From a virus: a stretch of DNA of 48,423 nucleotides. The notes beneath the pieces are model-generated. The model was not told the DNA's origin. It saw only the letters and a program-made list of their open reading frames with translations, and made no database searches. Below are positions 8,279 through 48,423 of this stretch, one piece after another. The stretch is taken from IMG/VR virus record IMGVR_UViG_3300034190_002406, positions 1 to 48,423 of that record, one strand, 5' to 3'. Position 1 is the stretch's first letter; every line of letters begins with the position of its first letter. The position numbers and the translations under genes were made by a program.

Positions 8279-11200
8279 TGGCTGACGATAAGTTTCAGGC
8301 ACTCGAAGATCTCCTTTCTGCCGACAAAAATGACCCCTTAAACGATCAGTATAGTGCCGGGGGTGCTCCTGTTGAGCTACCGGAACCTAAGCCGATTGAT
8401 AAACTTGCAGATGAGCTTGGCTCACAATACTGGCAAGGTATGTCTTTCCGGGAAGCTATGGATGAGTATGATCGTATAGCAGGCCTCCCTAATGCTGAGA
8501 AAACCTTAACTGGAAACCTGAGATATACAGATACAATCACAGGCCAGGTAGAAGATGTTCCGCGGCCTTCTCCAAAAATGTGGAAGGCTACGCTTACAGC
8601 GGCAGGCCAGGCTATCGCGGCACCGTTCTCTGAGAATGTCTCTCTCGGTGACGCCTACGAAACCTTCACTAACCCAGAAGCTGGTGTAGATGCAGATAGA
8701 TTACTTCTCATGGGAGCTCGGGAAAGTGCTGGAGACTTACAGGAGCTAGGTGCTGCCGTTATGGGTAATGACGAGCGAGCTGAAGAGATTGCTTTAAACA
8801 GCCCTCAAGTTGATACAGAAGATAGCTTTGTAGACAGTATGGTTGCGGATGGCGGTCCTGCCATTGCAGCTGCTATTCTCGGGGATAAAGGCCTTAGCAA
8901 AATTGGCCCTGCTTTATCAGCACTTACAAAATATGTACCTCAGTTTGTAAAAAATGCTGGCCGTGTGCTTGCCGGGGAAACTGCGGCGGTAGCTACGATT
9001 GGGACAGAGGAAGGAAATGTTGTTTTAGGCGAAGATGCAGCCATACCCTTATTTGATGGACTAGATCTTGGCGATTCTAAATCTGACCAGATTGTAGAGC
9101 AGCGAGTAAATGCCCTGATTGAGGGTATTGGTGTATCTAGTCTTGCTGCAGGAGCCCTTCGTACAGCTGCAGACACTGCAGGCTTGGTATACGACATGTT
9201 GGTACGACCTGTAATGGGGGTGATAGGTCCGAAAAGTAATAAAGAAAGGGTTATATTTGATGATATAGCCAACCGCTTAGCTGGCATTACGGAGGCAACT
9301 ACCGAGGAAGAGCGGTTTCAGATCATTCAGTCTATGGCAGAAACTATAAATGCTAATCAAGAAGTATTCATATCCCGGCTAGCCGCTAACCAGGAAGAGA
9401 TGCCGATTAAGCTTGATACCCTCAACGCACTTATACGGGGTATTGAGGATCCCCAGATGGCTGCAGAGGCTCGTAAGGTTATCGCTGGTATGAACACCAA
9501 GGCGATGCCAGGCTTCACAGCCAAACTGGATGCACCTAAAGCTCGCATGGATGCAGAAATACAGTCGTATTTAGATTCAATCGATGCCCCAAATCCTGAA
9601 GCTCAAACCGCCGCTATGCAAGGTGCTGCAGATGACTTTGCTGGCCAGGCTAATCAGTATCTTAATGAAGCTACGGCACCAGCTGCAAAATTTGATGCAG
9701 ACTACAACCAGGCTCTAGAGAGTATTGGTTCAGGTATTTCAGATGATCTAGAGTTTGCTGGGCGGCTAAAGCAATTAGAGACCGTTACAGGTACTGACAT
9801 AGCGGAAGCAAAGAGTGGTAAGCTCAATGAAATTATGGAAGGTGTACGGCTAGGTTACGAGGATCTCTCTAACCAGAAGAACACGCTGTATAATGAGATC
9901 AAGGGTGGGGAGATTGATCCTGATGCCTTGTTTGAAAAGTTATTCGATCTGAATGACGATCAGCTGTCAGCTGCTTTGAGCCAGGTGCGCAGATCTAGCC
10001 CGATTAAAAATATGCTGGATATCATTAACACAAAGAATGTGCCTGATGTCGATCCAGATACCGGCAAAGAAATTATGCGTCCACCTACAGACGAGGAGCG
10101 GCTTGCGTTATTCAGAGATGCTCTAACCGGCCAGAATGCAGACTTCGGGTATATCTATACCACGATTAGACCCGAACTCAGCGCATTAGCTTCCGATCTG
10201 TACTCTTCTAACCAGGGCGGTGCCGGTAAAGTTGTACGTGATCTTGTACGTTTCATTGATGAAGACATGGTTACTTTTGTTGAGAACAGTGACCCTGATT
10301 TGGCTGAGGCTGCACGGGCAGCTAAGTCCTTCTACAAGGATACATTTGCACCTATCTTCAGTGGCGAAGGTGTGATGGCTGACTATGCAGATCTCTACAA
10401 CCGAACTGTTGGACGTACAGACAGTACAGACCTTACAGCCGGAGTTACTGGACCTGAGTTTGATGCAAGCGGCTATAACCAGGGAGTAGAGAACCTATCT
10501 AAGGGCATACTATCTGGGGGAAATGTAGCCTCTGCCGATCAGATGATGCAGGCCCTAAAGGTAGCATCAGATCCTAACGCTATGGCAGACTACATGGTAC
10601 TTGATGTGCTGGATAAGTATGCCTCAGATATCAGGATTAACGGACTAGACGGCGCAAAACTTACAGGGATGTCCACAGACCTTCAGAGGTATGCCGACCA
10701 GCTAAACGAACTGTTTCCAGAGAAGGCGGCACAGATCACTACATTTGTGTCACAGATTGAAGAGGCTGCAAGATCACGTGGTAACCTAGATGGTGTTATG
10801 GAGCGCCTAGATGGTGCCGTTAAATCTGCTAAGGAAGATATTGCAGAGACAGAGCTCATGGGATTTCTTCGTACTGAGTTAGGTAACGATGAATTCTTGG
10901 CGACAACAAATCCACAGGCCGCGTTTTCTAAGCTGTTTAATAAAGACGAAGTATTAGCGAGTATTGAAAATATAAATCTATCTATGGCCTCTTTACCTCC
11001 AGAACGCCGTGCCATTATTAAGAAGGGCTTAGAGGTTGCCTATCTACGGCATTTTAAGCTCAAGACTTCTGATTTCCGGGCAGAGCTTGGTGGAACAACT
11101 CCTATCAAAGAGGTTCCTATGGCTAAGGCCCAGCAAGGCTTTGATAGCTTACTGCAAGTTGGTCGAGAAGTATTTGCTGATAAGCCTGAGGTTGCGGAAG

Positions 11201-24422: not shown

Positions 24423-24574
24423 TAGAACGGGGGTTCTCCGTTTTTATCCAACTCAGGAAGGTTATATTCAAACGTGCGGATTGGCGTAGGCTCTTCTGGG
24501 TCCGTATCAGTAGCAGTGATTACGCCCATGTCTGATAGGTAGTTAGCCAGCTCTACCGGTATCTGGTTATCCAT
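24422..24574 (-). CDS. Small hypothetical protein, 50 aa
   Basis: Reads MDNQIPVELANYLSDMGVIT and ends LPELDKNGEPPF. Joined to both neighbours by TAATG overlaps. Acidic, soluble; no family recognised. Confidence 0.6.
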   Translation of the reverse strand: MDNQIPVELANYLSDMGVITATDTDPEEPTPIRTFEYNLPELDKNGEPPF

Positions 24575-24819
24575 TAGGTATCCTCCAGATGTGCTTTTAG
24601 TTCTTCGTAGCCACCAATGTGTTCACCTCGATAGTCGAAGACTTGAGGCACAGTTGTTAGACCAGCCATCTTTACCAGGGTCTTGAGCCAAGCAGATGTA
24701 GTGCTATCTAAATTATGTGTGGTGAAGTTGATCTTATGCTGTCTAAGCAGGTCGATACATTTCTCACAGTACGCACAGCCTGGCTGCTTCAGTACTAAGT
24801 AACAGGTTAAGCTAGTCAT
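24574..24819 (-). CDS. grx: Glutaredoxin, 81 aa
   Basis: Thioredoxin-fold redox protein with active site CAYC preceded by KQPG, the cis-proline segment TVPQVF and the GGYEEL glutathione-binding end. Size matches classic glutaredoxins. A likely electron donor for the phage class II ribonucleotide reductase, although the two genes are in different transcription units. Overlaps both neighbours by 4 bases or less. Confidence 0.9.
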   Translation of the reverse strand: MTSLTCYLVLKQPGCAYCEKCIDLLRQHKINFTTHNLDSTTSAWLKTLVKMAGLTTVPQVFDYRGEHIGGYEELKAHLEDT

Positions 24820-26536: not shown

Positions 26537-27004
26537 TTACAATGAATTCGACCTACTACTGTTTTCTTCTAGGTCTATAACTTTCTCTAAATTATCTAAC
26601 AGGCGCAACGCAGTTAGGTGACCTGTTTCCTCAGAGGTTTTTCTATATATATCAAACCAATCTTCAGCCATGTCTAACAATATCTGTTTACCTCGACAAA
26701 GCCGGGTCTTTCGAGCACCAGGTCTTGTAATTATCCAATCCTCAGCCTCTGTATCATCAACCATCTGAATAACGGTAACTCTGGAAACACCCAGTAGCTT
26801 CGATATTTTTGATACACTGTAGTCTTGGTCAGTTAAGGTCGCGTGTACCATTAATTTAGCAAACGACTCCCGTGTTCCCGAGCTGTTGAAGTACCTTAGC
26901 TGCTTACTACTCTGCCGTGTGTTATATGCTTGTAGCAGAGATATCTCATGAGAGATGACGGCGGCTATAGCTTTCTCGCGTACATGCTTTTGATATCGTC
27001 GCAT
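26537..27004 (-). CDS. Winged-helix (MarR/HTH type) transcription regulator, 155 aa
   Basis: Residues 62-93 (YSVSKISKLLGVSRVTVIQM and following) form a clear helix-turn-helix with a wing-like RPGARKTRL after it. The flanking N-terminal and C-terminal helices (about 5-55 and 105-150) probably dimerise. AGGAGA lies 7 bases before the ATG. A perfect 15-bp palindrome stands 32 bases upstream, consistent with autoregulation. Its place next to int suggests a lysogeny or integration regulator. No CI-like fold or peptidase domain is present. Confidence 0.75.
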   Translation of the reverse strand: MRRYQKHVREKAIAAVISHEISLLQAYNTRQSSKQLRYFNSSGTRESFAKLMVHATLTDQDYSVSKISKLLGVSRVTVIQMVDDTEAEDWIITRPGARKTRLCRGKQILLDMAEDWFDIYRKTSEETGHLTALRLLDNLEKVIDLEENSSRSNSL

Positions 27005-27035
27005 GTAATCTTCTCCTACCTGTGTGATCTTATAC

Positions 27036-27050
27036 GTAAACCTAGTTTAC
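27036..27050. promoter_or_regulatory. Perfect palindromic operator upstream of the regulator gene
   Basis: GTAAAC-CTA-GTTTAC, 6-bp arms with a 3-base centre. The spacing equals about one helical turn between half-sites, typical of a dimeric helix-turn-helix protein. Related repeats occur at 18198, 26046 and 31254. Confidence 0.6.
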
Positions 27051-27094
27051 AAAGCTACAGGTTGCAATAGGGTAAGTATAGAGGTATCAATATT

Positions 27095-27113
27095 ACACCA
27101 CACCCTGTGGTGT
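27095..27113. repeat. Perfect inverted repeat between regulator and accessory cassette
   Basis: ACACCACA-CCC-TGTGGTGT, 8-bp arms with a 3-base loop, not followed by Ts. Could be a second operator or a hairpin at the 5' end of the regulator message. Confidence 0.6.
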
Positions 27114-27126
27114 CCCTCCCTCCCTG

Positions 27127-27162
27127 AAGGCCTGGCATTAATTTGCTGGGCCTTTTTTTTTT
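27127..27162 (+). terminator. Rightward terminator at the left edge of the accessory cassette
   Basis: AAGGCCTGGC / GCTGGGCCTT stem (8 of 10 pairs) followed by ten Ts. No rightward gene lies just before it, so it may block read-through into the cassette or be a relic of insertion. Bases 27163-27373 after it are non-coding and AT-rich, with no convincing promoter. Confidence 0.75.
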
Positions 27163-27373
27163 GTTAAAAATTCCCGCGCGTTAACTCACATAAATCCCTA
27201 CTGTAATGTGCCTGTACGCAAGGTATGTAAGGCATGCTTGTGTTTCATTAAGGTAATTTCAAAATGATTTACTGATGTGATTTTTAATGTTGCAAAGTGT
27301 TTTGATCTATGTATTTTGATTTCTACCAGCTGATTTGTGGCTGGCTAACTTAACCAACGGAGGCGACCAATCA

Positions 27374-28081
27374 ATGCCGTTATTAGTAACGAACAACGGG
27401 AACACAAAGATCCGCAAGAGTGCCGAGCAATCTGGCATGCGGATCGCGTCCCTAAGCTTATGGCCAGATCATAAGATATGCCCAGGCTCGAAAGCAGCCG
27501 GATGCATGGATCTGTGCTTAAAAAGTGAAGGCCGGGGAAAGATGCAATCTGTGCAGCTGGCTCGATCTAACAAAACCGAGCTCTGGCATAATGACCGGGC
27601 AAGGTTTCTAGAGATGTTATTCGAGGAGATTTTTGTTTGGATCCGGCGATGCAAAAAAAGCGGAGACAAGGCAGCAATTCGCCTTAATACAATCAGCGAT
27701 ATAGCCTGGGAGCAATATGGGATCTTCGAAGAATTTCCCGACCTGTTTGGCTACGATTACACTAAACGAGTGCAGCGCCTGGGACGTACCCCAGATAATT
27801 ACAAGCTGATATTTTCCTACAGTGCCGAGCCAGCTTACCAGGGATCGGTTAACCGAGCTTTAAACACAAGTCACCCGATTGCGGTAGTTTTCCGGGGTGG
27901 CCTGCCTGGGGAATACCTGGGGCGATCCGTCATCGATGGCGATAAAAGCGATATCATTAACGTGATGGCTGGCCCGGTTGTGATCGGGCTGAAGGCAAAA
28001 GGCACCAGCGGCAAGCGCAGCCTGGCCAGTAATTCAAATTTTATTGTCGATAATCCTGAAAGCTTGGAGGTAGCAGCATGA
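27374..28081 (+). CDS. Gp88-family-like protein, 235 aa
   Basis: The N-terminal SLSLWPDHKICPGSKAAGC followed by MDLCLKSEGRGKM is the cysteine-rich block that I associate with phage Gp88-type proteins; later segments AIRLNTISDIAWE and YDYTKR, and YSAEPAY fit the same family. Function unknown; the Cys residues could bind metal. The ATG at 27374 is chosen because GGAGG lies upstream and the family block starts close to it; the longer reading from 27335 adds 13 residues. It opens the accessory cassette. Confidence 0.7.
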   Translation: MPLLVTNNGNTKIRKSAEQSGMRIASLSLWPDHKICPGSKAAGCMDLCLKSEGRGKMQSVQLARSNKTELWHNDRARFLEMLFEEIFVWIRRCKKSGDKAAIRLNTISDIAWEQYGIFEEFPDLFGYDYTKRVQRLGRTPDNYKLIFSYSAEPAYQGSVNRALNTSHPIAVVFRGGLPGEYLGRSVIDGDKSDIINVMAGPVVIGLKAKGTSGKRSLASNSNFIVDNPESLEVAA

Positions 28082-28410
28082 GCAAGCACATTCACCTATA
28101 TCAGTTACTGTCTGATGATGAAAAGCAGATGCTACAGGATACACCTGACGGGGAAGAATATTCCGAAGCATATAAAAAGCTTCGCCGTAAACACTTCCCC
28201 AAAATGAACAAAGAATTTTCCAAGCTTCATGTCGATAACCAGCGCCGCCTGCGGGAGCTTTTCACAATTGTGGAGCGGGTAGTCAAGAGCATTCACGACT
28301 GCGGAGATGTTTGGACTAGCGACTACAGAAAACTGGCGGACAGCCTGAGCTGCCTCGATGATTTTATCACCGGAGATATCGGTTACATCGAGGAAGGGAA
28401 GCCCGAATGA
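28078..28410 (+). CDS. Hypothetical cassette protein, 110 aa
   Basis: Helical and charged (KAYKKLRRKHFPKMNKEFSK-like basic patch, then a long helix). ATGA overlap with the Gp88-like gene and a 4-base overlap with the next. No family recognised. Confidence 0.6.
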   Translation: MSKHIHLYQLLSDDEKQMLQDTPDGEEYSEAYKKLRRKHFPKMNKEFSKLHVDNQRRLRELFTIVERVVKSIHDCGDVWTSDYRKLADSLSCLDDFITGDIGYIEEGKPE

Positions 28411-28631
28411 AAACCATAATTCACGTTAACCAACACATCATCAGATCCAACACGAAGGGAGGTGAAAGCAAGCCGCCGCTGACCGTAAAGACATACAAGG
28501 AAAACAGAAAGGCATTTACGGCTGAATTCGAGGGCAAGGGCAGGGTGATCTATTCCCCGGAAAAGCCCCTGCCTTGCGGCGCTAAGGTTTGGATAGAGAC
28601 CGAAAGCGAGGTGTATATAGATGCTCGCTAA
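28407..28631 (+). CDS. Hypothetical cassette protein, 74 aa
   Basis: Small beta-rich protein (PPLTVKTYKENRKAFTAEFE, then GRVIYSPEKPLPCGAKVWIE). Overlaps both neighbours. Looks like a small barrel; function unknown. Confidence 0.6.
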   Translation: MKTIIHVNQHIIRSNTKGGESKPPLTVKTYKENRKAFTAEFEGKGRVIYSPEKPLPCGAKVWIETESEVYIDAR

Positions 28632-28704
28632 ATTCTACCAGGTGATCGGCTTTATCATATGCTGGACCTGGCTTCTACAAATTCTAAAAAACTCAAACAA
28701 CTAA
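28621..28704 (+). CDS. Tiny membrane peptide, 27 aa
   Basis: MLAKFYQVIGFIICWTWLLQ followed by ILKNSNN: one hydrophobic helix. It overlaps the preceding gene by 11 bases and ends 17 bases before the DUF932-like start. Small size lowers confidence. Confidence 0.4.
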   Translation: MLAKFYQVIGFIICWTWLLQILKNSNN

Positions 28705-28721
28705 GAAAGCGACCAAAAAAA

Positions 28722-29585
28722 ATGACACAAGATCTTATCTTTTCACGTAATACATCTAATGCAACCTTGTCCCTGGTGGACATCATGGAACGCGCACCAG
28801 CTGCCTTATGGAATGTTAAAGGCGAGCAGCGAGGCGAAAATTACGCGCATATCCAAACCCGGCAAGCGATCGATATCCTGGCCGATCATGGATACCAGGT
28901 AACACAAGCCGCCCAGGTTAAATCCAGAAAGCATTCTGATGCTCTATATGCTCGGCACCTCTTGGCGCTTAGCAATCCAGACCTCGAAACAGAAGAAGGG
29001 ACGCCCGAGATTATCCTGTATAATTCCGGAGATGGTAAATCGGCGCTGCGCATGTTCGCAGGTTTCTATCGGTTCATTTGCTCAAATGGTCTCGTGGCGG
29101 GATCCGGCTTCGAGGTTAAGGCCCGGCACAGTAAAGCCACGGCCAGCAACTTCGAGGGCATGATCAAACAAACCGCGGAAAATTTCCCCTGGATGTTAGC
29201 CCAGATTAAACAAATGAAAGCGACCACAATCACAGCGAACCGAGAGCTAGCGTTAGCAGAAAATGCGGTAAAATTACGCTGGGATAAATTTAGCCGGGAT
29301 CATTTGGATGACGAGGGTAATTTTAAGCACGGCATATATTCCACACCGATGACAGTTCGAGGCCTGATCAATCCGACCAGGGCAGAGGATCAACCACGCA
29401 ATTTGTGGACCTCGTTTAATAAGATCCAGGAGGGATTGATCCGGGGAGGTGTAAAGACTTTGAGCGTAACCAAACGCAATCCAGGCGGCACCACCCGGAA
29501 GTCCCGGCCAATGGGGAACGTGAAAGCGAGCCTCGATGTTAACCGACAGTTGTGGGATCTGGTGGCTAACCAGGTGGCCGCATGA
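28722..29585 (+). CDS. DUF932-like phage/plasmid protein, 287 aa
   Basis: Segments EIILYNSGDGKSALRMFAGF, YRFICSNGLVAG and NRELALAENAVKLRWD, followed by NLWTSFNKIQEGLIRGG, match the DUF932 (phage/plasmid-like TIGR03299) pattern. These proteins occur on plasmids and phages; no activity is established. I chose the ATG at 28722; the 28659 reading adds 21 basic residues that overlap the tiny upstream peptide. The leader has GCGACCA before the start, as in other cassette genes. Confidence 0.8.
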   Translation: MTQDLIFSRNTSNATLSLVDIMERAPAALWNVKGEQRGENYAHIQTRQAIDILADHGYQVTQAAQVKSRKHSDALYARHLLALSNPDLETEEGTPEIILYNSGDGKSALRMFAGFYRFICSNGLVAGSGFEVKARHSKATASNFEGMIKQTAENFPWMLAQIKQMKATTITANRELALAENAVKLRWDKFSRDHLDDEGNFKHGIYSTPMTVRGLINPTRAEDQPRNLWTSFNKIQEGLIRGGVKTLSVTKRNPGGTTRKSRPMGNVKASLDVNRQLWDLVANQVAA

Positions 29586-29671
29586 AGGATTGGCTTGGCG
29601 ATCTTCTGGGCGCTCTGTGCCTGTTTGGTGGTGCCTGGCTCTGGCTTATTATTGCCTGGGCGATCAGCTAA
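29582..29671 (+). CDS. Tiny membrane peptide, 29 aa
   Basis: MKDWLGDLLGALCLFGGAWL then WLIIAWAIS: a single very hydrophobic, Trp-rich helix. Joined to the DUF932-like gene by an ATGA overlap and followed by a terminator at 29701. The second such peptide in the cassette. Confidence 0.5.
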   Translation: MKDWLGDLLGALCLFGGAWLWLIIAWAIS

Positions 29672-29700
29672 AAAATTGATGTAACTGTTAGGGTGAGAAA

Positions 29701-29724
29701 GGGGCTTTAATTAGTCCCTTTTTT
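29701..29724 (+). terminator. Terminator after the DUF932-like operon
   Basis: GGGGCT / AGTCCC stem (one G-T pair), 6-base loop, then TTTTTT. Ends the first cassette operon. Confidence 0.75.
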
Positions 29725-29780
29725 ATTTTAATAATGGGGCACCGGATTAGCCGGGATTTAACAGAAAAGGCGACCAGCTT

Positions 29781-29942
29781 ATGATTACTAATGAATGGAA
29801 CAGAGATTTACCTGCACTCGAAAAGCAGAAGGAAAAAGCTTTCGATGATATGATCGATACCAGGCTCGAGGGTATGATCACTCGCATTGATACCCTACTG
29901 GAAAAACTAAAAGCCCCCAGCTCGACAGATCGTGAGGTGTGA
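29781..29942 (+). CDS. Small coiled-coil cassette protein, 53 aa
   Basis: MITNEWNRDLPALEKQKEKA followed by FDDMIDTRLEGMITRIDTLL and a polar end: one long amphipathic helix. AAGGCGACCAGCTT precedes the ATG, the leader motif shared by cassette genes. Two bases separate its stop from the next ATG. Function unknown. Confidence 0.6.
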   Translation: MITNEWNRDLPALEKQKEKAFDDMIDTRLEGMITRIDTLLEKLKAPSSTDREV

Positions 29943-29944
29943 TC

Positions 29945-30556
29945 ATGAAATTCAACATAACAGTTTTGAAGCTAAAGCTTTCACGCGAGCAATCGGCAGA
30001 GGTTAACGAAAAGGGATCCTGGTCAAACACTATTTGGGGCACCTCTTATCTGAATTTAAATCATCTCGGCATAGATGATGCAGATAAACACATCATCACA
30101 AGCGATCTTTATCTCCTGGCTGATAGCGGGATGTATCACACCGCGGCTCGATACCAGATCGAAAGAAACCAGAGATACCAGGAGATGAGCGGGGAGCATC
30201 CGGGCGATCGGGAATATGATTGGTTTGCCGACCAGGTGTTTGACGCGGATAACCTGGGGATCAAAAAAGATCTGATCTGGTCTAAGCCCCGCATGCCTTC
30301 GATGTCAGTGGGAGATATTGCAATCATCGAGCGGCCAGGCTTGCCGGATCCTTCCGAGGCTCGTTACCTGGTGGCCGCTAGCTTTGGCTGGGTGGCACTA
30401 AAGGAACCGCAGAAGCAACTACTCGATCAACTAACCTGGTCCGATCGCATGGAAAGCTTTAGCAGCCAGGAACTACAGCAGAGCGAGAAAGAACATTACA
30501 GACGCTGGGCGGATGTTAACCTGCCTTTAAGCGCCGAACCATTGCAGGAGGCTTGA
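29945..30556 (+). CDS. Hypothetical cassette protein, 203 aa
   Basis: Mixed alpha/beta soluble protein; segments TSYLNLNHLGIDDADKHIIT, MSVGDIAIIERPGLP and ARYLVAASFGWVAL are notable. The middle section (VGDIAII ... YLVAASFGW) resembles a small beta-barrel. The ATG at 29945 with GAGGTG upstream is preferred to a GTG two codons earlier. Last gene of the cassette, followed by a strong terminator. No family recognised. Confidence 0.6.
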   Translation: MKFNITVLKLKLSREQSAEVNEKGSWSNTIWGTSYLNLNHLGIDDADKHIITSDLYLLADSGMYHTAARYQIERNQRYQEMSGEHPGDREYDWFADQVFDADNLGIKKDLIWSKPRMPSMSVGDIAIIERPGLPDPSEARYLVAASFGWVALKEPQKQLLDQLTWSDRMESFSSQELQQSEKEHYRRWADVNLPLSAEPLQEA

Positions 30557-30599
30557 TCATATCCATTCAATAGCTCAGCTCACCAGGAAAGCTTTAAGG

Positions 30600-30625
30600 C
30601 CCCGGCATTGCGTCCGGGGTTTTTT
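30600..30625 (+). terminator. Strong terminator at the right edge of the cassette
   Basis: CCCCGG / CCGGGG perfect stem, 8-base loop, then TTTTTT. Confidence 0.85.
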
Positions 30626-31232
30626 ATTGCCTGCCCGGCGATCCTATCCAGATCATCAAGAAACCTGACATCGATGACAGCTCCGGCGCTATGCTGTTCG
30701 GCTAGCCTGCTCCTGATTGCCTGGCCTGGATCCTGGTTTAGCCTGGTGGATGTTCTCCCGGCTTTCCCTGGGGATTGTCTGAGGGCCTGGCCGATCGGTT
30801 ACCCGGCGACATCGAGCAAGGTCATATGCATACATAACAAGGCACCCCTCGCCTGGTTATTTTTTACGTCACGCATATGAAATAATTGCGCAGCTGGTGG
30901 ATCCTTTGCAGCTATTTCCCTTCGCTTTGACCAATTAGGTAGTAGGTTTATTAGAGATTATTATTCATTCCCTGAGGCTTAGCTTTTACCCGTGCTGCCG
31001 ATCGGATCCTGGTGCCTGCTAATCATAAGAATAAGGCAGATCCAGGCTAAACTTTTACCCCGGCGAGTGCCACCCCCCCTCCCCCCGGTATCGTATACAA
31101 CACCCTCCCAATTTTAGGAAAATACGGACTGTAAAGTGGGCCGAGTATAGACCCAAAGCTAGCCGAGGTATTTGTACTGTCACCTATATTCGTTAATACG
31201 TAATGATATCATAGGATTAGGTTACATTTCAG
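30626..31232. other. Non-coding interval between cassette and early promoter
   Basis: No convincing gene: the rightward ORF at 30608-30880 begins in a terminator and has no ribosome site. It contains two similar elements, GCTTAGCTTTTACCC (30977-30991) and GCTAAACTTTTACCCC (31046-31061); the first 13 bases of the second also occur at 18-30. A C-rich run lies at 31073-31087. Several AT-rich stretches follow from 31170. A replication origin or a regulatory hub is possible; nothing proves it. Confidence 0.4.
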
Positions 31233-31290: not shown

Positions 31291-31608
31291 ATGGACGAAG
31301 TTAGCGTAGGTTTTACCCTTCAATACGAGCATTATCTAGACTTTGATGAGTCTGATGGGCTGGTGCTTCAGTTATTCGCTGGAGAGGCTCATGCTAATGA
31401 CCCTGTAGAACTAACCATACCCTTCGAGGAACTATTCGAGGAGATGATGGTAGAGGGTAAGCAGGATTTAGACTATCAGTTTCTGTATAACATGGCCCAT
31501 GAGTTTAATCGGTATTCGGAGCTAGCCAGAGAGGCTGCTAGGATGATTGAGGATAGCTCATCTTCGCTAGAGGATATGTATGGGTTGGATATCGGGGATC
31601 TCGATTGA
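31291..31608 (+). CDS. Very acidic early protein, 105 aa (DNA-mimic candidate)
   Basis: I count 27 Asp/Glu against 4 Lys/Arg, net charge about -23, with acids spread through the chain and no membrane segment. It is the first gene behind a strong host-type promoter. T7 Ocr (gp0.3, about 117 aa, first early gene) has the same profile and mimics DNA to block restriction enzymes. There is no sequence match to Ocr that I can see; the role is inference. Confidence 0.65.
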   Translation: MDEVSVGFTLQYEHYLDFDESDGLVLQLFAGEAHANDPVELTIPFEELFEEMMVEGKQDLDYQFLYNMAHEFNRYSELAREAARMIEDSSSSLEDMYGLDIGDLD

Positions 31609-32051
31609 GCTTATTCCCTCCACAAGACACGATAGATAAAATATCTAACCAACAGACCGGTCGGATTGGTGAACTATTGGCCGCGTATTACCTGGAAATG
31701 TACGGTATTGGTACAGAGATCATTAGAGGTATTGGCAGTGATCTTTGGTGCCGGAGATCTGATGGTCTGATGTTTACGTGTGAAGTTAAGACTTGCCACA
31801 TTCCTTACGTTCAGAGTTCTACTTGTACCATGCCTTCATACAGGTTCTCCATTGTTTCTGATGTCCAGCGGTCAGCTGATATCCATGCTTTGGTAGCGTT
31901 AGATATTGGAGGTGTTCATTTTATGGCTACCTCTGAGCTACCTGCAGGCGGTAAGAAGACACTGAAGGCTCAGCGTTTCAATGAGAGCTGGATATTTCCG
32001 AGCTTAGAGACTGCCTTAAAGAGTGTAGTAGGAAATAAGAAAGCAGCCTAG
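31605..32051 (+). CDS. PD-(D/E)xK-like nuclease, 148 aa
   Basis: TGRIGELLAAYYLEMYGI, then IGSDLW and FTCEVKT: the E ... D ... E-x-K spacing of the PD-(D/E)xK nuclease fold, as in Holliday junction resolvase and homing-type enzymes. It starts at a TTG (31605) that overlaps the stop of the acidic protein, so it is coupled to it. Acting early, it might degrade host DNA or serve recombination. Distinct from the resolvase-like protein at 16145. Confidence 0.65.
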   Translation: MSLFPPQDTIDKISNQQTGRIGELLAAYYLEMYGIGTEIIRGIGSDLWCRRSDGLMFTCEVKTCHIPYVQSSTCTMPSYRFSIVSDVQRSADIHALVALDIGGVHFMATSELPAGGKKTLKAQRFNESWIFPSLETALKSVVGNKKAA

Positions 32052-44796: not shown

Positions 44797-46439
44797 TGCC
44801 TGATGAAATTCAAAGCTTTAAGGTTGTCTGTTCCGGCGGTCTAAACTCAAATGAAAATCATCTATTTCTTGCTGAATCTGCGCCGGGTGCAGCTACTCGG
44901 CTGGTGAACTTTGAGCCGTCACTTTATGGCGGCTATCGTCGTATTGAGGGGTACTCTTTACTAGGTGGTTTGGACCAAGAGGTTGGAGTAGGTCTGGCTG
45001 AAGGCCCAATCCTTGGGCTTGCGATTTATAAAAATGAACATTTAGGCAACCCATACATTATTGCCGCTCGAAAAGACGTAGGCTCCAACAGCTACTCCTT
45101 ATACAGGTTCGTAGAATTATCAGGCTGGCAGAAGATCCTGCTACCTCCGACTGTTACTCTTAGTTACACAGCCAATGGCCGAACAGTTACGAAGCTACGC
45201 CACACACAGTTCGACTTAGGCTCTGGATCGCAGATATGTTTTGTGGACGGGGTAAATCCTGCCAAACTATTTGACGGTACAAACTGGTATGAGTTGACCA
45301 ACACAAACACAGGAGGTTCCTCTAGTCCGGGTGGTGATCAAGCTGTCAACGCCCCTGCTATTGTAGAGGTTTTTGAGAACCACCTTTTCTTAGGTGGAGA
45401 CTTAACCTCTAGGGCTGTAATTTGTCACTCGGCACCTAGCGATCCATTAGATTTTACAGTTGCCAGTGGTGCTGGTCAGATCACCCCAGGTTTCAATGTA
45501 GTTCAGTTCAAGCCTTTTCGTGATGATCTTTTCATATTCGGCATAAATGCAATCAAGAAAGTAAGTCCAGACTTAAGTGTCGGTTTCACTTTAGATCAAG
45601 TGACGACAAACGTAGGTTGTGTAGCCCGTGATAGCGTTCTTGAAATTGGTGGGGATCTAATTTTTCTTTCCCCAGAAGGTTTTAGACCAGTTGCCGGTAC
45701 TTCCCGAATTGGTGATATTGAGCTAACCACACTTTCCAAATCTATTCAGGTAACTTTGGTCAATATGATCAAAAATTACGACATGGACACGATGAACGGT
45801 GTTGTAATCCGAGGTAAGTCTCAGGTCCGTTTTTTTGTTGGCGACGGTACAGAAGATCTGGAAGAAAGCTACGGCATTATTGGGGGTCTATCGGATCAAA
45901 ACGGTCAGGTTGGCTGGGAGTTTGGGGAGCTTGTAGGCATCCGCACCTCCTGTGTAACATCTGATTATATTGGCTTGGAAGAATACGTCTTGCACGGCGA
46001 CTCTGATGGTAAAGTATACCGCCAGGAAGAGGGATCGTCTTTTAATGCTAGAGATATACTTGGGGTATATTCCACACCGTACTTAGATTTTGGCGACACA
46101 GAGACCCGCAAGGTTCTTCGCAAGGTAAACACCTTCATACGGGCAGAAGGTCCTGTCGAGCTTTTCCTCTCAATGGCTTACGATTGGGGAACACCCAATA
46201 CGCCTCGCCCTCTTAATTACCTAAACGAGAGCGAGGGCGGTCCAGTTGCCTACGGCGGTCAGGATCTAGACTATGCAGGTGTAAACGTCATTTATGGCGG
46301 AAACTCCAAACCGATTATGACATCAGATATACAGGGGTCCGGTTTTTCAGCACGGGCCACTTTTACAACCATTGGGCAATCTAAACCATATACAATTCAG
46401 GGTTTAGTAATTGAATTTAGCATTTCAGGAAGGCGTTAA
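44796..46439 (+). CDS. Tail nozzle / tail tubular protein B-like, 547 aa
   Basis: Beta-propeller-like protein following the adaptor, in the gp12 position of T7-like phages. Repeated strand-turn units (DGTNWYELTNTNTGGSSSPG, then FENHLFLGGDL, LIFLSPEGFRPV) are consistent with a propeller. Shorter than T7 gp12 (794 aa). It may instead match the P22 gp10-type stabiliser. Confidence 0.75.
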   Translation: MPDEIQSFKVVCSGGLNSNENHLFLAESAPGAATRLVNFEPSLYGGYRRIEGYSLLGGLDQEVGVGLAEGPILGLAIYKNEHLGNPYIIAARKDVGSNSYSLYRFVELSGWQKILLPPTVTLSYTANGRTVTKLRHTQFDLGSGSQICFVDGVNPAKLFDGTNWYELTNTNTGGSSSPGGDQAVNAPAIVEVFENHLFLGGDLTSRAVICHSAPSDPLDFTVASGAGQITPGFNVVQFKPFRDDLFIFGINAIKKVSPDLSVGFTLDQVTTNVGCVARDSVLEIGGDLIFLSPEGFRPVAGTSRIGDIELTTLSKSIQVTLVNMIKNYDMDTMNGVVIRGKSQVRFFVGDGTEDLEESYGIIGGLSDQNGQVGWEFGELVGIRTSCVTSDYIGLEEYVLHGDSDGKVYRQEEGSSFNARDILGVYSTPYLDFGDTETRKVLRKVNTFIRAEGPVELFLSMAYDWGTPNTPRPLNYLNESEGGPVAYGGQDLDYAGVNVIYGGNSKPIMTSDIQGSGFSARATFTTIGQSKPYTIQGLVIEFSISGRR

Positions 46440-46441
46440 TC

Positions 46442-48423
46442 ATGGCTGGTTACACTCGGCAATCGAGACCCGACATTACCAATGGGGCAGATATTACGGC
46501 TCCACCTCTTAACGCTGAGTTCGACCAGATCGAAACAGCTTTTGGCATTGCCGGGCACACGCACGATGGTACTACAGGTAATGCCCCTAAGATCAATCTA
46601 GCAACATCAGTCTCTGGTTACCTAAAGCAGGTAAACGGCGGGGTAGGTGGTGCCAATAACACTACAGCTACGACTAATCCAACGATTACAGATGATACGG
46701 TTGCAGGCTATGCAAAAGGCTCTCTCTGGCTGAACACTACAACGAACCGTATATACGTTTGTGTATCCGATACATCGTCTGCAGCGGCATGGTATGAAAT
46801 AGCTGCCACAAACAGTGCAAATAATATCCTACCATCAGGTGACGGTGTCGTTGATCTCGGTGCTGTAGGAAATCGTTTCGCTGGTTTGCTTATGGCAGGG
46901 GATGCCACAATTGGTGGATCCATAACCGTTACTGCAGCGAGTTCGTTCCAGAACAACGTAGACGTTACAGGTGATCTAGACGTAGATGGTAGCTTAACTG
47001 TAGAAACCAACGCAACGATCACGGGTGATGCAACGCTTAACGGCAATACCATAATCGGTAATGCAAACACCGATACGGTTGCGGTTAATGCGCAGGTTTC
47101 TACAAACATCGTTCCTAACTCCGACGATGCCAGAGATCTCGGTGAGGCGGCAAAAGAGTTTCGCAACCTGTTCCTAGATGGAACAGCGCACATCGACACA
47201 TTGGATGTGGATGAGAGTGCTGCAGTAGCTGTTGATCTAACAGTAGGCGGCAACGCCCAGATCGATACAAACCTAGATGTCGATGGCGTTACAACTCTAA
47301 ATGGCAACACCACTATCGGTGACGCAGGTACAGATGTTCTTTACGTCAATTCTGAAATTGCAACATCCTTGGTTCCATCTGCCACAAACCTTCGGGACTT
47401 GGGTACAGCAACCAAAGAGTTTCGGGATTTATACCTAGATGGCACTGCGCACATTGATACGCTCGACGTAGATGAAAATGCGACAGTTGCAGGTACACTA
47501 GGCGTCACAGGCAACACCACACTTACAGGTACACTAACCACAGGCGGCATCACGGGTACGTCTGCTAACTTCTTAAGCAACGTAGGTGTTTCAGGTACTG
47601 CTACGATTGCGACAGTAGACATCAACGGCGGCAACATCGATGCAACACAGATCGGTGTATCAAACCCTGATACAGCCCGGTTTACTACAGTTGAAACATC
47701 AGGTTTGGCGTCATTAGCTACTGTTAATATCGACGGTGGTAACATCGACGGTACGATTATCGGTGCGACAACACCTGATGCAGCGACCTTTACTACAGCC
47801 ACTGCGAACAGCGGTTTCACAGGCGACCTAGCAGGTAACGTCAGCGCACCCACCGGCACATCGACTTTCGATAACGTCACTGCATCAGGTACTATTACAG
47901 GTGCTGTCACAGGCGACATTACGGGTAACGTAAATGCAAGCACAGGCTCGTCCACATTCAACAATGTGACCATCAACGGTACATTGAACATGGATGCAGG
48001 CACGACTGCTACTATTACTAACCTTTCTGCACCAACAAACGACAATGATGCGGCACGAAAAGTAGATGTTGATAATGCTGTAGCTGGATTAGTTGATAGT
48101 TCTCCTGGTGCATTGGACACACTAAATGAACTAGCGGCTGCGCTGGGCGATGATGCAGACTTCTCTACTACAATTACAAATAGTATTGCTACTAAATTAC
48201 CTCTCGCTGGTGGTACAATGTCTGGTGCCATCGACATGGGCTCGAATAAGGTCACTAACGCAACCGATCCGACTGCAGCACAAGACCTTTCGACTAAAGC
48301 GTATACTGATCAGCAAGACGCTCTGCAGGTTACCAAAGGCGGCGATACCATGTCTGGTAACCTTGATATGGGTTCCAACAACATCACAGGTCTGGCTACT
48401 CCGACTTCCAATGACCATGCTTC
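46442..48423 (+). CDS. Tail fibre/receptor-binding protein, partial (runs off the right end)
   Basis: At least 660 codons with no stop. N-terminus MAGYTRQSRPDITNGADITA and a HTHDG motif suit tail attachment. The middle contains a duplicated unit of about 64 residues (from residues 200 and 287), each ending DGTAHIDTLDVDE. Further on are repeats of the form GGNIDGTxIG-x-x-TPDAAxFTT and, near the end, LAGGTMSGAIDMGSNKVTN units common in phage fibres. Decides host binding. The missing C-terminus must lie outside the window. Confidence 0.85.
   Translation, partial: MAGYTRQSRPDITNGADITAPPLNAEFDQIETAFGIAGHTHDGTTGNAPKINLATSVSGYLKQVNGGVGGANNTTATTNPTITDDTVAGYAKGSLWLNTTTNRIYVCVSDTSSAAAWYEIAATNSANNILPSGDGVVDLGAVGNRFAGLLMAGDATIGGSITVTAASSFQNNVDVTGDLDVDGSLTVETNATITGDATLNGNTIIGNANTDTVAVNAQVSTNIVPNSDDARDLGEAAKEFRNLFLDGTAHIDTLDVDESAAVAVDLTVGGNAQIDTNLDVDGVTTLNGNTTIGDAGTDVLYVNSEIATSLVPSATNLRDLGTATKEFRDLYLDGTAHIDTLDVDENATVAGTLGVTGNTTLTGTLTTGGITGTSANFLSNVGVSGTATIATVDINGGNIDATQIGVSNPDTARFTTVETSGLASLATVNIDGGNIDGTIIGATTPDAATFTTATANSGFTGDLAGNVSAPTGTSTFDNVTASGTITGAVTGDITGNVNASTGSSTFNNVTINGTLNMDAGTTATITNLSAPTNDNDAARKVDVDNAVAGLVDSSPGALDTLNELAAALGDDADFSTTITNSIATKLPLAGGTMSGAIDMGSNKVTNATDPTAAQDLSTKAYTDQQDALQVTKGGDTMSGNLDMGSNNITGLATPTSNDHA
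47039..47491 (+). repeat. Internal duplication in the tail fibre gene
   Basis: Two copies of a unit of about 192 bases start at 47039 and 47300, a 261-base period. The proteins share NGNT-x-IG, DLG-x-A-x-KEFR-x-L-LDGTAHIDTLDVDE. A weaker third copy lies before (ILPSGDGVVDLGAVGNRF). Confidence 0.75.

Follow-up and report, generated by a model that had tools for sequence, protein, structure and literature searches.

The window (the whole stretch of DNA analysed) is a single IMG/VR virus record of 48,423 bases. Its segment at 27.1-31.09 kb, which encodes a Gp88 protein, a DUF932 protein and two membrane micropeptides, is on balance best read as the first rightward (early) operon, the phage leading region, of a podovirus of the HMO-2011 type, subgroup III. 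The segment lies between the integrase/replication arm and a junction upstream of the terminase arm, its genes are conserved, its short words are lineage-specific with a sharp right edge, and its early genes carry repeated leaders. This operon probably lies at the genome end that enters first and carries host-takeover or anti-defence genes expressed at once on entry. An earlier note on the same DNA had singled out positions 27127-30625 as an accessory cassette transferred from elsewhere, lying between two strong terminators and written in a different codon style; the observation was largely right, whereas the idea that such a cassette had been transferred is for the most part mistaken.

The window is assigned by its gene content to the HMO-2011-type podoviruses, and to subgroup III because CRP-235, CRP-3 and CRP-212, all Roseobacter phages, have the integrases nearest to its own (38-43% identity). 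The subgroup includes these three and CRP-738 (PMC9038755, PMC6918029). Among the window genes we recognised TerL, portal, DnaB-like helicase, family A DNA polymerase and ribonucleotide reductase, and the window shows the features of the subgroup, namely the shared replication genes, the integrase upstream of the replication arm and the order TerS/TerL/portal. The genes of the left arm (integrase, primase, helicase and polymerase) are all oriented leftward; the segment follows as the first rightward operon, and then come a non-coding stretch, the junction element and the terminase arm. A DNA-level search against phage records gave no match for the window, and tRNA and Rfam searches found nothing.

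Matches to PF17338, PF06067 and PHROG families agree with the genes listed in the earlier note (a Gp88-like gene, unknowns, two membrane peptides and a DUF932-like gene). All are on the plus strand, beginning with the GP88-family protein of 235 amino acids (aa) at 27374..28081 (PF17338, E 1e-33). It is followed by a 110-aa unknown (28078..28410; an open reading frame matching phrog_8412 at E 2e-4) and by a 74-aa unknown of the phage-wide family phrog_8676 (28407..28631; E 1.4e-20), a family present in 28 phage records and represented in the relative L002 by a counterpart of 65% identity. The micropeptide mp1 (28621..28704), 27 aa with a single membrane helix and the motif Y..iGFivfWlW, was found again in seven relatives, CRP-235, L073, L029, L080, L115, L172 and L185. 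The 287-aa DUF932 protein (28722..29585; PF06067, E 2.3e-25) comes next, and its stop is overlapped by the start of mp2 (29582..29671), a membrane peptide of 29 aa with the motif WlGDllGAlClF that was found again downstream of DUF932 in four relatives (L073, L085, L010 and L080). Both tiny membrane peptides are thus real and kept in relatives. The last two genes are open reading frames for a 53-aa unknown (29781..29942) and a 205-aa unknown (29939..30556), the latter with a single relative found, 87% identical. NCBIfam and PADLOC searches gave chance-level matches only. In L073, an early gene at 9768-10517 (+) encodes a 249-aa protein without Pfam match, in which PPC- and ENP-like motifs recalling cytosine-5 methyltransferases were seen by eye.

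The gene order gp88 then DUF932, divergent from the integrase, was found in 11 of the 11 integrase-bearing relatives with enough sequence; the pair also adjoins the integrase in CRP-235, and L114, L115, L157 and L172 agree. The pairwise identities of gp88 and DUF932 correlated with those of the core genes (integrase, primase, helicase, TerS and the genes past the junction) at r 0.45-0.79, against 0.45-0.89 between the other genes. Since the order is conserved in relatives and the identities track the core genes, the block is judged from these comparisons to be a vertically kept early operon, inherited with the genome, and not a recent accessory insertion. The content of the slot does vary: gp88 is missing from CRP-3, CRP-212 and CRP-738, although each of them has a DUF932 relative (E 1.5e-8 and 1.7e-9; marginal for CRP-738, 3.5e-4, below the cut-off), and two of these three carry DUF2958.

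The composition of the segment truly differs from its flanks, as the earlier note had seen. With an order-3 word model trained on the segment interior and on the rest of the genome, the maximum-scoring stretch was 27090..31088, so that the aberrant segment is longer than first delimited. The predicted rise in GATC- and CCGG-rich words was confirmed by counts per 3.5 kb: GATC 42 versus 20.8 elsewhere in the genome, CCGG 22 versus 9.1 and CCWGG 32 versus 9.5; CGATCG occurs 5 times in the segment and never in the remaining 44 kb. The GC content is ordinary (0.486 versus 0.466), and among the codons named in that note only Leu CTG is clearly shifted, being doubled (0.33 versus 0.17), while Arg CGC/CGG is hardly raised (0.40 versus 0.35) and Ala GCC is not commoner at all (0.20 versus 0.22). 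In synonymous-codon shuffles, which preserve protein and codon usage, the coding sequences gave 23.5 GATC (sd 3.0, maximum 32 across 300 shuffles) against 37 observed, and 5.1 CCAGG and 5.3 CCTGG against 13 observed for each. Codon usage is therefore insufficient as the cause of these words, and the 500 non-coding bases carry the same word bias; the difference is a DNA-level word preference more than codon usage, the "codon style" being a by-product. Where tested, no stretch of equal length in the rest has as few distinct 6-mers as the segment (0.553 versus 0.595, sd 0.009, in the window; 0.395 versus 0.535, sd 0.024, in L073). Six-base palindromes are avoided in the rest, but the early segments of four genomes (the window, CRP-235, G002 and L073) do not avoid them. 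The strongest tetranucleotide outliers of the genome are the segment and the region at 46-48 kb. The latter (46001-48423; z 5.5) lies inside the structural arm, holds two leftward genes for proteins of 201 and 304 aa, both without Pfam match, and is possibly a moron.

An aberrant segment was found at the same place in every subgroup III genome examined, with differing words. The enriched words are CCWGG, GATC and CCGG in the window, GCCCC, AAAGC and TGCAA in CRP-235, L073 and L085, CCCGG and AGCGC in L002, CGGC and GGCC in L029, CCCGG and CGGCC in CRP-3, and CGGCC and ATCGG in CRP-212. All the early segments are poor in AC/GT and AG/CT steps, and most are also enriched in AA. Signature distances among the rest of the genomes are small (0.03-0.09, alike), whereas those among early segments reach from 0.05 to 0.29. 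A general loss of palindrome avoidance was considered as the common feature, and fails in L029 and CRP-212 and is only partial in CRP-3 and CRP-738. As a broader and rather doubtful proposal, some temperate marine phages may keep a leading-end segment of 3-5 kb under a process acting on the DNA itself, giving each lineage its own restricted set of short words in coding and non-coding DNA, sharply bounded by the packaging junction, with a common signature elsewhere. A DNA-binding protein of the phage that co-evolves with the words as its sites could account for them, as could selection acting while the DNA enters.

On its right the segment breaks off at a conserved junction element, located at 31028..31172 (+) and composed of a G/C tract, the core CGTATACAAC at 31092 and a GTAAA block. 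The segment ends at 31088, 4 bases before the CGTATACAAC core, and in six genomes (the window, CRP-235, L029, L073, L002 and CRP-212) the edge falls 4-32 bases before it; in L012 the edge overshoots the core by about 115 bases. A 15-sequence nhmmer seed detected 24 loci at E < 1e-19, the window among them at 2.6e-20, a value that is not independent because the seed includes the window. The element faces the terminase operon in marine genomes; weaker matches occur in freshwater relatives with an inverted early block, still pointing away from gp88. By its position it looks cos-like, and it may hold or adjoin the packaging end. Among 28 element-bearing contigs counted by hand, 16 stop within 2 kb of the element toward the early operon, against 1 toward the terminase arm; such a bias would fit either strong variation in the population or a physical end. 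These contig ends were rejected as proof of cos because the breaks, mostly early-side, are scattered across 2 kb and not placed at a single base. It is quite possible, short of probable, that the junction instead serves as an origin of replication, or as a promoter or regulatory site for the terminase arm, the segment then being an internal domain. The G/C tract, the conserved GTAAA-like block, the orientation toward the terminase operon about 3 kb away and the read-through by many contigs agree with such a site, while the compositional break within a few bases of the element in six genomes, and one contig (L038) that ends inside it, weigh against it.

The first genes past the junction encode proteins of 105 and 148 aa (31291..32051, +) and form a conserved start of the terminase arm; neither protein has a Pfam match. 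By eye, the 148-aa protein (31605-32051) is PD-(D/E)XK nuclease-like (GELLAAYYLE..DLWCR..CEVKT), and it is kept in L002, L089 and others. On the other side of the operon, the 155-aa protein encoded divergently at 26537..27004 (-) gave weak helix-turn-helix matches (Pfam HTH_23, E 0.0037, below the cut-off), and no homologue was present in the loci searched; it may be a repressor or regulator that acts on the divergent control region, which belongs to the early operon and is placed at 27005..27324 by position and a terminator scan. Further left, at 24574-24819 (-), an 81-aa glutaredoxin-like protein (CAYC) was assigned by eye; it shares its arm with a B12-type ribonucleotide reductase at 12.8-14.8 kb.

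Both terminators that had been said to bound the block exist, the right-hand one being the weaker. The rightward intrinsic terminator/attenuator at 27126-27155 (+; -19.5 kcal/mol, z -4.0) faces rightward and is located before gp88, so that it insulates or attenuates and does not close a cassette. The terminator-like hairpin at 30596..30626 (+), closing unit 2, has a weak fold (z -1.35). A third intrinsic terminator, missed before, lies at 29690..29729 (+; -19.5 kcal/mol, z -5.1) and divides the block into two units. By motif occurrence, a start-associated leader is found in two copies on the plus strand, the first at 27325..27376 (TTAAC, GGAGGCGACCA and ATG) and the second, with a CCGG hairpin supported by folding, at 29742..29783 (the hairpin, TTTAAC, AAAAGGCGACCA and ATG). 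A possible CCAGC/GCTGG hairpin in copy 1 appears in the centroid fold only and is not significant. The motif GG..CGACCA..ATG is common to early genes in many of these phages, nearly missing from the rest of the genome and almost confined to early genes (2 of 3 in the window, 3 of 3 in L073, 4 of 4 in L009 and all in L172).

Gp88 matches PF17338 over residues 21-231 with 117.6 bits (cut-off 24.4), and Cys 36, 44 and 48 are invariant in an alignment of 61 sequences, with the spacing CX7CX3C. The AF2 model (pLDDT 88, pTM 0.86) has alternating strands and helices with the cysteines just after strand 1, and matches Gp88 models of BFVD at E 1e-19 and TM 0.83; the Gp88 model is thus of alpha/beta type and TIM-like, with its three cysteines clustered. 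In T7-like relatives gp88 is among the leftmost genes (CRP-143 gp2 at 261-932). DUF932 matches PF06067 with 90.1 bits against a cut-off of 23, and its AF2 model has a pLDDT of 83. At least 5000 plasmids encode it, and of the 5000 that were counted, 4463 are conjugative. In F, the DUF932 gene (64438-65259; 273 aa) is part of the leading region that also holds psiB and ssb, where it sits toward oriT and two genes away from traM.

A leading-region role for the window segment is suggested because DUF932 stands beside the oriT of F, gp88 stands at the left end of T7-like genomes, and the early genes share their leaders. T7 injects its left genome end first. If the junction element holds or adjoins the packaging end, the segment would be packaged last and would enter first. 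The host RNA polymerase could then transcribe it at once from the divergent region, and Gp88, DUF932 and the two membrane micropeptides might weaken the defences of the host or redirect its metabolism ahead of the expression of the replication and terminase arms. The block had been called the best place to look for a new system; counter-defence is still a reasonable expectation, but a defence system is not indicated, the PADLOC matches being at chance level.

Several observations weigh against this proposal. PADLOC gave no meaningful match in the window, and neither Gp88 nor DUF932 has a significant match to solved structures by sequence or fold (for Gp88, no PDB match at E < 0.06, TM about 0.3), so that structure comparison yielded a function for neither. 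A single contig (L038) stops inside the junction element. A first-entering segment would be expected to show the strongest avoidance of palindromes; the opposite was seen in 4 of 8 genomes, where palindromes are clearly less avoided in the segment than in the rest. Finally, freshwater relatives have the block inverted, so that the element, gp88, DUF932 and integrase all run in one direction (L109, L110, L181 and similar loci), and in this clade the compositional bias is slight and the signatures of segment and rest differ little.

It is unlikely that the operon is instead a lysogenic-conversion or superinfection-immunity unit, expressed from the prophage, with micropeptides that block DNA entry of related phages. 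The integrase adjoins the operon, the relative CRP-3 integrates at a tRNA-Met gene (PMC6918029), and the divergent helix-turn-helix gene and the membrane micropeptides would suit such a unit. Gp88, however, also heads T7-like genomes, some of them without integrase, in the leftmost early position, and a search of 84,980 genomes for a prophage or host link found no prophage loci, giving only 2 hits, both on contigs of metagenome-assembled genomes (MAGs). A Maricaulis MAG contig, NZMJ01000079 (27.8 kb), carries a Gp88 gene of 50% identity, and a second, distant Gp88 is present in the same assembly; the contig may be a prophage or phage contamination.

More unlikely still is recent transfer of the block as a foreign module between terminators. 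The aberrant words, the variable slot content in CRP-3, CRP-212 and CRP-738, the early signatures that differ among phages while the rest is alike, and the excess of contig ends on the early side, suggesting a hypervariable segment, all point toward it. Nevertheless, the same genes are found in the same order and place in all testable relatives, where the block is largely core, and their divergence parallels that of the core genes. The signatures closest to those of the aberrant segments belong for the most part to early segments elsewhere in that clade of phages (for CRP-3 and CRP-212, to chromosomes), and a Gp88 relative was found on one plasmid only. Of the transferred unit, therefore, the aberrant composition stands and the transfer itself is mostly unsupported. 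Least probable is that the words imitate the host chromosome, an idea that fails as a general rule: the early dinucleotide signatures of the window, CRP-3, CRP-212 and CRP-738 are nearer to 35-40 of 40 alphaproteobacterial chromosomes than a typical window of the rest, but those of CRP-235, L073 and L029 shift away (nearer in 4, 3 and 2 of 40), and mimicry is insufficient because CRP-3, CRP-212 and CRP-235, which all infect strain FZCC0040, use different words.

The early operon is of interest because its conserved set of Gp88, DUF932 and the two membrane micropeptides is small enough for expression and testing. Through it DUF932, a very common plasmid gene beside the F oriT, is linked to a phage early operon, and it is a reproducible compositional domain with an edge at a conserved junction element.

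Compared with known systems, the window is closest to CRP-235, CRP-3, CRP-212 and CRP-738, which have the same replication arm, terminase arm, slot and junction element, but among these isolates gp88 is present only in CRP-235, and the word vocabulary is different in each. Like Gp37/Gp68 and radical SAM proteins, Gp88 as modelled has its strands and helices in a TIM-like order, with the three invariant cysteines following strand 1, and some of its relatives are annotated as Gp37/Gp68-like. The cysteine spacing in the 61 Gp88 sequences, CX7CX3C, is not the CX3CX2C of radical SAM enzymes, and the similarity in fold to these enzymes falls short of significance (E about 1), so that a radical SAM function is a lead only. 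Plasmid leading regions are rich in anti-defence genes (PMC11541004). Pfam, NCBIfam and PADLOC detected no known anti-defence gene (ardA, psiB, ssb or acr) in the window segment; unlike the F leading region, it has neither psiB, ssb, ardA nor a methyltransferase, and phage DNA is double-stranded, not single-stranded. The two regions are alike in having small genes and DUF932 in a segment that enters first, as is proposed for the phage, and in their establishment position. The first-step-transfer DNA of T5 and the left-end early genes of T7 resemble the window segment as early blocks, a few kb long, at a genome end presumed to go in first. The window differs from them in that it gave no sign of two-step injection, that no T7-type RNA polymerase was seen in it and that the palindrome content of its segment is higher, not lower. 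Start-associated sequences are known from cluster K mycobacteriophages (PMC3203893). The window motif is a different one, TTAAC..AGGnnCGACCA..ATG, restricted to the early segment, but in both cases a short motif is repeated just upstream of the start codons in a set of non-structural genes.

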